A DNA stretch of 64,000 bases from Methylophaga thalassica MP (GTDB lineage Bacteria > Pseudomonadota > Gammaproteobacteria > Nitrosococcales > Methylophagaceae), in the NCBI RefSeq assembly GCF_000214595.1, contig NZ_AFIG01000001.1, forward strand, positions 1,282,382 through 1,346,381, read 5' to 3'. Shown in pieces: positions 18,894-23,429 of this stretch (positions within the stretch are counted from its first letter, which is position 1; each line of letters opens with the position of its first letter). Below the pieces are notes generated by a model. The model saw nothing but the letters and a program-made list of their open reading frames with translations. It did not search any database and was not told the origin of the DNA. A program made the translations under genes and the position numbers.

Positions 18894-19583
<690 letters not shown>

Positions 19584-19598: not shown

Positions 19599-22019
19599 TT
19601 AATGATGATTGGGTGAGTTTACCTCATGATACTTATTTTTATCAGAGGCAATAACTCCCGTTTCGTTATTGGCTGAAGGCATATGCTGTAAGGCAACATC
19701 GAGCACTTCATAGATCCATTTAACAGGAATGATGGTTAAACCTTGTTTAACATTTTCAGGAATTTCCTTCAAATCCTTAACGTTATCGTGAGGAATTAAT
19801 ACTGTATCTATTCCACCTCGATGAGCAGCTAACAGTTTTTCTTTTAGTCCACCAATGGCTAATACTTCACCACGCAGCGTAATTTCACCCGTCATAGCTA
19901 CATTCGCTTTGACAGGAATGCCAGTGATAGCCGAGACTAATGCGGTACACATACCAATACCAGCACTTGGACCATCTTTCGGTGTAGCACCTTCAGGTAC
20001 GTGGATATGAAGATCATGTGTTTGAAGAAAATCTTCACTAATGCCCCACTCTGTTGAACGAGACCGAACAACCGTTGTAGCCGCCTGGATAGATTCCTGC
20101 ATAACATCACCTAATTTACCGGTATAAGCAGACTTACCTTTGCCTGGCATAATAGCTGATTCAATCGTTAATAGCTCACCACCGACTTCAGTCCAGGCTA
20201 ATCCGGTTACCTGACCGACACGATCACTTTCTTCAGCCACACCGTACTGATAGTGATATACACCTAAGTATGTTTCGATATTATCGGCCGTCACGATAAC
20301 TTTTTCTTTTGGCTGCTCAGTAATAATTTGTTTCACTAATTTACGGCAGATTTTCGAAATTTCACGTTGTAAATTACGTACGCCAGCCTCCCGGGTATAA
20401 CGTCGAATAATTTCCATGACGGCATCTTCCTGAATATGAATTTCCTCAGCTTTAAGACCATTGTCTTTAATCGCTTTAGGCAAAAGATATTTCATGGCGA
20501 TATTGAGTTTTTCATCTTCTGTGTAGCCCGCAAGACGAATAATCTCCATACGATCACGTAATGCATCGGGGATATTCAATGTATTTGCAGTACAGACAAA
20601 CATAACGTCGGATAAATCATATTCAACTTCTAAATAATGATCGGCGAACGTTGAATTTTGCTCAGGATCAAGCACTTCAAGTAATGCTGATGCAGGGTCA
20701 CCGCGAAAGTCTTGAGCCATTTTGTCTATTTCATCAAGCAGAAATAAAGGATTTTTTACTTCTGTTTTACAAATATTCTGTATGACTTTACCAGGCATAG
20801 AACCTATATATGTACGGCGATGACCACGAATCTCAGCCTCATCTCTTACACCACCTAAGGCCATTCGGGTGAACTTACGATTAGTCGCCCGCGCGATAGA
20901 TTGTGCAATCGATGTTTTACCCACACCAGGAGGACCGACCAAGCAAAGAATGGGACCTTTTGATTTTTTTACACGTTTCTGGACTGCAAGGTATTCAACG
21001 ATACGCTCTTTGACTTTTTCAAGACCGTAATGGTCTTCATCCAAGACCTCTTCAGCCTTGTGCAAATCCAAAGTCACTCTTGAGCGTTTTTTCCAAGGAA
21101 CTTCCAATAACGATTCAATATAGTTTCTAACTACAGTCGCTTCTGCAGACATTGGCGACATCATGCGAAGCTTTTTCAATTCTGATTCCGCTTTTGCACG
21201 TGCTTCGGCCGGCATGCCGGCTTTTTCGATATTCGCAGCAAGCTCATCCGTCTCGTTTGCTGATTCGTCTATTTCGCCTAACTCTTTCTGAACGGCTTTG
21301 AGCTGTTCGTTTAAATAGTATTCGCGCTGGCTTTTTTCCATTTGTTTTTTAACACGGTTGCGAATACGTTTTTCAATCTGCTGAATATCAATCTCGCCTT
21401 CAAGGAAAGCCATTAACTTCTCAACGCGTGCTTTTACATCACTCATCTCAAGTAACATTTGCTTATCTTCAAGCTTCAGTGTCATATGTGCAGCAACGGT
21501 ATCAGACATGCGCGACACGTCTTCGATACTCGAAAGCGATGAAATCACCTCAGGTGGAATCTTTTTATTTAATTTGACGTATTGTTCAAATTGACCCAAT
21601 AACGTTCGCATGAGAACATCGGCTTCACGGTCATCTTCGATATCATCAATAAATGGTGCCACTTCGGCTTCTGTATGCGTGTCGTGATTATGGAAATAAA
21701 CCACATTTGCACGTTGTACACCTTCTACCAGTACTTTAACTGTACCGTCAGGCAGCTTCAGTAATTGTAAGATATTTGCCAGCGTCCCCGTTTCATACAA
21801 ACCATCTGTATCAGGCGTATCTTCGGATGAGTCTTTCTGTGCAACCAACAGGATTTGTTTACTTTCGTCCGTTGCCGACTCAAGGGCTTTGATAGATTTA
21901 TCTCTACCAACAAAAAGTGGTATCACCATATAGGGATACACGACAACGTCACGTAAAGGTAAAACAGGAACAACCTTTATGTTGTTATCGTTTGAAGTGG
22001 TAGTTAGTTCATTTTCCAT
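19599..22019 (-). CDS. lon: ATP-dependent Lon protease
   Basis: The cytosolic AAA+ serine protease of 806 aa. In order: the N-terminal LON substrate domain ([20 protein letters not shown]), AAA+ with Walker [10 protein letters not shown], and the protease domain with the Ser-Lys dyad in [11 protein letters not shown] and the LLAAHRGGI region. ATG 22019 (MENELTTT) has AGAGG upstream; an in-frame extension to 22052 has none. It degrades damaged and regulatory proteins. A sigma32-like promoter precedes it, and dedD follows after 15 nt. Confidence 0.97.
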
Positions 22020-22073
22020 TAAGGCAAACCTCTTACATGTGTCTGTAGACACCCAATTTAGGACATGAATTCA

Positions 22074-22101
22074 ATATGGGGTCAGACAATAAAAAATCAA
22101 G
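22074..22101 (-). promoter_or_regulatory. Sigma32 (heat-shock)-like promoter for lon
   Basis: Leftward strand: CTTGATT (22101-22095), 13-nt spacer, CCCCATAT (22081-22074). This fits the RpoH consensus CTTGAAA-N13/14-CCCCATNT closely. It lies 55 nt before the lon start, and the -35 element is part of the clpX terminator arm and T-run. Confidence 0.7.
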
Positions 22102-22126
22102 CATACAGAAATCGTATGCTTGATTT
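22089..22126 (-). terminator. Rho-independent terminator of the tig-clpP-clpX unit
   Basis: A perfect 13-bp stem (AAATCAAGCATAC / GTATGCTTGATTT) with a 7-nt loop. On the leftward strand it is followed by TTTTTT continuous with the arm. It lies just after the clpX stop. Confidence 0.88.
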
Positions 22127-22157
22127 AATGTGCAGATACAACGGTATAGTTAACTGA

Positions 22158-23429
22158 TTATTTATCGCCAGAGGCCATATCAGTGCTTTGATCTTCGTAA
22201 ATCAAAATAGGTGAGTTCTCACCAGCAATCACACTTTCATCAATCACTACTTTGGAAACGTTATCTGCTGACGGTAACTCAAACATAGTATCAAGCAACA
22301 CATTTTCAATGATAGATCGTAAACCACGAGCGCCTGTTTTTCTCTCCATAGCTTTTCTGGCGATAGCTCTTAATGCATCATCTCTGAACTCAAGTTCAGC
22401 ATTTTCCATATTGAATAATTGTTGATACTGCTTAGTTAGTGCATTTTTAGGTTCAGTTAGAATCTGAACCAATGCTTTTTCGTCTAGCTCATCCAATGTA
22501 GCAACTACCGGTAGGCGACCAACAAACTCTGGAATAAGACCATATTGAATAAGATCTTCAGGCTCGACTGTCCGTAATGACTCACTCAATGGCTTATTGT
22601 CATCCACACTTTTTAGTTCAGCAGAGAAGCCAATACCACCTTTTTGGGTACGATTTCTGATAACTTTATCCAAACCAGCAAAAGCACCACCACAGATAAA
22701 TAAAATTTTACTTGTATCTACCTGTAAGAACTCTTGTTGAGGATGTTTGCGTCCGCCTTGTGGTGGTACAGAGGCAATCGTTCCCTCAATCAATTTCAGC
22801 AATGCCTGTTGAACACCTTCACCACTCACATCGCGAGTAATTGATGGGTTGTCTGATTTGCGAGAAATTTTATCTATCTCATCAATATAGACGATGCCTG
22901 TCTCTGCTTTATCAACGTCATAATCACATTTTTGCAGTAGCTTCTGGATGATATTTTCAACATCTTCCCCTACATAACCGGCCTCTGTAAGCGTGGTAGC
23001 ATCAGCCATAGTAAAAGGCACATTTAACTGTCTGGCTAATGTCTCAGCTAATAACGTTTTACCGCTACCGGTAGGCCCGATTAAAAGAATATTGCTTTTA
23101 GACAGTTCTACGTCGTTATCTTTATTAGCCGTACGAAGACGTTTGTAATGGTTATAAACCGCAACAGAAAGGTAACGCTTAGCGCGTTCTTGTCCGATCA
23201 CGTAATTATCTAGTGCATCATTAATTTCGCGAGGTGTAGGTAATTTACTTTCGGCTTCTTCAGTCGCCATTTCCTGCATTTCTTCACGAATAATGTCGTT
23301 GCATAGATCGACGCATTCGTCACAAACAAATACAGATGGACCAGCGATTAATTTTTTTACTTCATGCTGACTTTTTCCACAAAAAGAGCAATAAAGTAAT
23401 TTATCATCGTTATTTTTGTCGTCGCTCAT
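22158..23429 (-). CDS. clpX: ClpX, ATP-binding unfoldase of the ClpXP protease
   Basis: A 423-residue AAA+ unfoldase. The N-terminal zinc-binding domain has CSFCGKS and CDECVDLC. The AAA+ module has Walker [13 protein letters not shown], Walker [11 protein letters not shown] and the ClpP-docking IGF-type loop in KGGIGFSAE. It feeds tagged substrates into ClpP, encoded directly upstream. Confidence 0.97.

Follow-up and report, generated by a model that had tools for sequence, protein, structure and literature searches.

In Escherichia coli, the frd terminator and ampC overlap, with the operon's stop signal shared with the control of the next gene. The clpX-lon region of Methylophaga resembles this case in that sharing. 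It differs in that the promoter precedes the shared hairpin at frd/ampC, whereas at lon an arm of the hairpin is itself the -35 box. The clpX-lon region of E. coli K-12 MG1655 (NC_000913.3) has the same gene order, with a terminator-like hairpin and then GTTGAA...CCCCATAT before lon, which we take to be the sigma32 promoter of that gene. By eye, however, 21 bases separate the end of the E. coli stem from GTTGAA, whereas the Methylophaga -35 lies inside the stem.

Two single-molecule studies describe RNA polymerase that is retained on DNA after termination and restarts (PMC6978322, PMC6978380), and the Discussion of PMC6978322 considers that sense promoters close to terminators might couple genes. 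The lon locus shares with these cases a promoter-like sequence at an intrinsic terminator. In PMC6978322 restarts were usually antisense, unlike the lon promoter, which is in the sense direction and of RpoH type. Titles and abstracts in the open-access literature, searched mostly by word and phrase matches, contained no description of a terminator/promoter overlap at clpX-lon, which is weak evidence of absence.

The clpX-lon intergenic region

We analyzed a window of 64,000 nucleotides (the whole stretch of DNA under study) from Methylophaga thalassica MP; the features given below by window coordinates lie on the minus strand. The open reading frame at 22158-23429 was assigned to clpX by the NCBIfam equivalog TIGR00382 (694.8 bits, cut-off 370.75), and that at 19599-22019, with an ATG at 22019, to lon by the equivalogs NF008053 (1263.5 bits) and TIGR00763 (988.9 bits), both above cut-off. 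The list of frames also gives a longer lon frame with a GTG start at 22052. A probable ribosome-binding site, AAGAGGT (22028-22034), was read from the sequence, and the block was found again upstream of lon in many relatives. At its N-terminus, Lon shares 98% identity with the protein of Methylophaga sulfidovorans DSM 11578, and the named records closest to it are Methylophaga.

Between the two genes we found CTTGATT-N13-CCCCATAT (22101-22074), composed of a -35 box CTTGATT (22095-22101), a spacer of 13 (22082-22094) and a -10 box CCCCATAT (22074-22081), the last occurring in this exact form in 35 of 47 family regions. Given the distance that is usual between -10 and +1, heat-shock transcription would be expected to start at 22066-22068. 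The earlier note had proposed RpoH-like boxes here, and the searches bore this out: CTTGATT-N10-17-CCCCATAT has a single match in the 64-kb window and none in any of 100 shuffles, and by a graded score, our own simple weighting, the site is the best sigma32-like one on both strands (12.25, the next two reaching 11.0). Before clpP, the best score was 9.0 with a poor -10, and therefore we do not claim shared control of clpPX.

The RpoH (sigma32) consensus behind these searches is supported by the genes near its matches in this genome, which itself encodes RpoH (410 bits against a cut-off of 323). CTTGAW-N11-17-CCCCATNT has six matches in the 3.26-Mb genome and the backwards pattern has none. The six precede htpG, clpB, a Grx4-type glutaredoxin, lon, a 108-residue protein (no NCBIfam family match at 1e-10) and rpoD, the last from inside dnaG. 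Across 24 genomes of the genus, a similar pattern gave 145 matches against 6 for its reverse, by our sum. Given this gene set and the excess of forward over reverse matches, the motif can be taken as a reasonable guide to heat-shock promoters in this DNA.

The site before rpoD (L003:1501-1529) falls within the dnaG frame, 354 bases upstream of where rpoD starts; with this location, its reading as a chance match was dropped. E. coli rpoD has a comparable sigma32 site within dnaG. Strings starting with CTTGAAAC occur in 16 of the 24 genus genomes by our count, their location being checked in the present genome alone.

A hairpin of 33 bases (22126-22094) follows clpX and reads AAATCAAGCATACG / ATTTC / TGTATGCTTGATTT. 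Its stem has 14 pairs, only 4 of them G-C, and is followed by the T-rich tail TTTATTG (22087-22093), which is also part of the promoter spacer. For the 78 bases from 22157 to 22080, the folding energy is -18.8 kcal/mol, whereas shuffles average -9.0 (z -4.1; 0 of 200 shuffles equally stable). With its stable stem and T-rich tail the structure resembles an intrinsic terminator, and its 3' arm contains the entire -35 box. The coordinates (22074-22126) and the description in the earlier note were right. Among the six sites of this genome, only that of lon has a hairpin touching its -35. CTTGATT serves as the -35 at htpG and clpB too, and CTTGATTT is present at both without a touching hairpin; therefore, these T's need not exist for termination.

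Two further features were noticed around the locus. The lon 5' leader contains a small hairpin, GTGTC-TACA-GACAC (22039-22052). Relatives also have one, of changing sequence (the best hairpin averages -4.8 kcal/mol and that of shuffles -2.1; -4 kcal/mol or lower in 29 of 47 family regions against 17% of shuffles), and it could affect the stability or translation of lon mRNA. A 229-residue protein (18894-19583) carries a long alternating Ala-Pro run, a repeat that also holds frames open on the opposite strand. A search of 21900-22250 against Rfam returned the trpB motif as its sole match, at 22.7 bits and E 0.55; we took this as chance, the score being far under the gathering score of 59.

Promoter and hairpin in relatives

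Searches with the Lon N-terminus gave matches in 22 of 24 genus, 51 of 57 family, 57 of 63 order and 136 of 143 class genomes, the sets overlapping. Upstream DNA was taken from these loci, with part of the class matches, from the search that gave the named Methylophaga records, and from some additional stretches. clpX lies upstream of lon on the same strand in 234 of 241 loci, and the other 7 were dropped. After removal of identical copies and of any region with a run of N, 194 distinct intergenic regions remained: 49 from the family, 6 from the other family of the order, and 139 others, including beta- and alphaproteobacteria from the named-record search. The arm swap, pair tally, tree and terminator rule described below rest on a hand-typed list of 47 family regions, which includes L157 (site score 10.5) and omits L166 and L167. 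The counts of best hairpins and site scores use all 49.

A site score of at least 11 was reached in 47 of 49 family regions, 4 of 6 from the other family of the order, and 39 of 139 others, indicating that the motif upstream of lon is conserved among relatives. In 36 of the 49 the score was at least 12, whereas 4900 shuffles reached 11 in 0.14% and 12 in none. All our shuffles kept dinucleotides only approximately, and for this test and the touching hairpins below plain shuffling was the fall-back. Of the 22 genus genomes where lon was found, 21 have the strict motif at that gene, the exception (G002, region L156) reading CCCAATAT. These results count against the reading that the sigma32 motif arose by chance and that transcription reaches lon by read-through from clpX. 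That reading would also have to account for a motif unique in the window and for six genomic sites against none reversed, and we consider it extremely unlikely.

The family sites agree with RpoH promoters in having CTTGA, a spacer of 13 or 14 (38 and 9 of 47 regions) and CCCCATNT, in a genome with an RpoH gene. CTTG is present in 47 of 47 and CTTGA in 45 of 47, with 2.0, 2.0, 2.0, 2.0 and 1.7 bits of information at the five positions; the regions were anchored on their best site, which favours the motif and makes conservation at the -35 partly a matter of construction. The two bases preceding CTTGA hold 1.2 and 0.95 bits, and positions higher up the stem 0.53 at most. Unlike the sites outside the family, where AA is the commonest continuation (CTTGAAA in 20 of 43), the family -35 mostly continues with AT or TT (39 of 47).

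We then considered the hairpin, calling it touching if its 3' arm ends between 1 base before and 13 bases after the -35 start. A touching hairpin of -8 kcal/mol or lower was predicted in 31 of 47 family regions and in 2.1% of 940 upstream shuffles. Its 5' arms differ widely among relatives (for example GCGTCCGG, TCAAGCAT, GCACCCAAC and ACAAGCCCC). In an arm-swap test of the 47 regions, own arms folded at a mean of -12.2 kcal/mol and swapped 5' arms at -7.6, with 0 of 2000 permutations as low; the test leaves kinship uncorrected, relatives not being independent samples. Pairs were tallied in 29 hairpins. Upstream of the -35 they vary, with six pair types at offset -6, and on CTTGA they are G-C, A-T, A-T, C-G or T-G, and T-A, the exceptions being one G-T and one A-T. 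Because the hairpins were predicted one by one, this tally would be circular by itself, and the arm swap is the independent evidence. Pairing is thus kept despite sequence change, though not in every relative.

The inverted repeat lies precisely over the -35, as might the site of a repressor, and could instead be a DNA operator whose regulator blocks that box. The stem sequence, however, varies widely among relatives with its pairing kept, favouring an RNA hairpin over a protein-binding palindrome, and 25 of 47 family regions have a T-rich tail after the stem. With a stem that turns over in this way, we judged an operator very unlikely.

To compare the family with other bacteria, we applied a terminator rule (stem of at least 5 pairs, 3 G-C, 5 T in 8). 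Among the 47 family regions, the predicted terminator overlaps the -35 in 25, lies elsewhere in 2, and is missing in 20. Among 44 others with a strong site, one of them from the family itself (L167) and four from the order's other family, the counts are 1, 12 and 31, and the single overlapping region (L172) belongs to the same order.

The best hairpin of each region gave a similar picture. It touches the -35 in 28 of the 30 family regions that have both a strong site and a strong hairpin; in the other two, the stem runs past the -35 (L032) or the hairpin lies 39 bases before it (L158). Outside the order, 0 of 31 best strong hairpins touch, 13 lie 1-30 bases before the -35 and 16 further away, and in the other family of the order 0 of 4 regions have a strong hairpin. 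When any hairpin ending at the -35 was counted, -8 or lower was found in 30 of 47 family regions, 4 of 39 outside the order and 0 of 4 in the order's other family, and -12 or lower in 27 of 47 and 1 of 39 (family and outside the order, respectively). As predicted from these sequences, the overlap is much commoner in the family, and neither universal in it nor exclusive to it. The remaining 2 of the 31 outside the order, L185 and L238, have a sigma32-like -35 inside a different hairpin that ends near the -10.

A strong touching best hairpin is missing in 17 of 47 family regions, and on the Lon tree the trait requires at least 10 changes, 7 of them forced by well-supported branches. By our reading, the 17 include eight in which a weaker hairpin (-4.7 to -7.8) ends at the -35 or no more than 5 bases from it, as well as L153 and L154, with other weak hairpins there (-8.1 and -5.5). 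Hairpins above -8 lie 1-5 bases before the -35 in L029, L034, L148 and L161. No hairpin worth naming is present at the -35 in L014, L017, L023, L158, L159, L162 and L164. In L014, L017 and L023, the promoter is intact and the clpX-lon spacers are 290-342 bases, about double what is usual in the genus. L014 and L017, which are sister taxa, have CTTGATA as their -35, which would fit release from a role in the U-tract but represents one event. By eye, these two have long-loop hairpins far from the promoter; the hairpin search, limited to loops of at most 9 bases (8 in the terminator rule), missed them. The overlap therefore appears to be a common arrangement and not a requirement, as the promoter is still present in several relatives whose hairpin has been moved, weakened or lost.

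Possible consequences of the overlap

Taken together, in the Methylophaga locus the same bases belong to the -35 box and to the hairpin arm; in the family, the promoter motif is conserved, the pairing is maintained while the stem changes, and the hairpin ends at the -35 in most members with a strong one. We think it quite probable that this is a dual-use element, in which clpX RNA folds into an intrinsic terminator and the same DNA acts as the RpoH promoter of lon. The earlier note had assigned both signals to the same bases, and the sharing holds in this sequence and among relatives; that these bases end clpX transcription and start that of lon we infer, along with heat induction of lon and any coupling of the two. 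The physical linkage named in that note stands for the DNA but not as a requirement, since several relatives kept the promoter with the hairpin displaced, weaker or gone.

On the simplest account of how such an element would work, the T-rich -35 and spacer would double as the U-tract, and a hairpin forming just before them would terminate transcription. The arrangement would be easy to keep and to re-form, as new hairpins adjoining the tract would terminate as well. A shared U-tract would therefore explain a hairpin pinned at the -35 without any further function. While paused where the RNA is released, a polymerase would occupy both the -35 and the -10; therefore, termination and initiation should alternate, excluding each other in time.

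Two views may be taken of the consequence, neither of which alters the anatomy. In the first, terminator and promoter share letters as plain economy inherited from an ancestor, and neither affects the other. The shared T-run would suffice to hold both together, and several lineages lost, weakened or moved the hairpin while the promoter stayed. Strong hairpins of quite different sequence nevertheless still end at the -35, and the best strong hairpin lies 1-30 bases before it in 0 of 30 family regions against the 13 of 31 outside the order. On this evidence, we regard the economy view as evenly balanced between true and false.

In the second, core RNA polymerase would stay on the DNA after terminating, meet RpoH and restart, with clpX transcription feeding lon under heat. 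PMC6978380 and PMC6978322 do report retention after termination and restart at nearby promoters in vitro. In PMC6978322, however, sense restart occurred in less than 2% of retained polymerases and with sigma70, not RpoH, and the hairpin is dispensable in some relatives of Methylophaga. We consider such a restart improbable. That the terminator places core polymerase directly on the lon promoter, where a rise of RpoH under heat would re-arm the enzyme coming from clpX and let it start lon, as sense gene coupling by recycling kept through much of the family, is similarly improbable.

For the dual-use element itself, the parts are ordinary, and their predicted fusion at lon is characteristic of the family. 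It is a warning that predictions of a terminator and of a promoter are not mutually exclusive, and it may provide a test bed for whether a polymerase leaving a terminator is taken up by an alternative sigma factor at the promoter beneath. For the family, it would be a compact natural case in which one stretch of DNA satisfies an RNA hairpin and a sigma-factor contact together, through much of the family.
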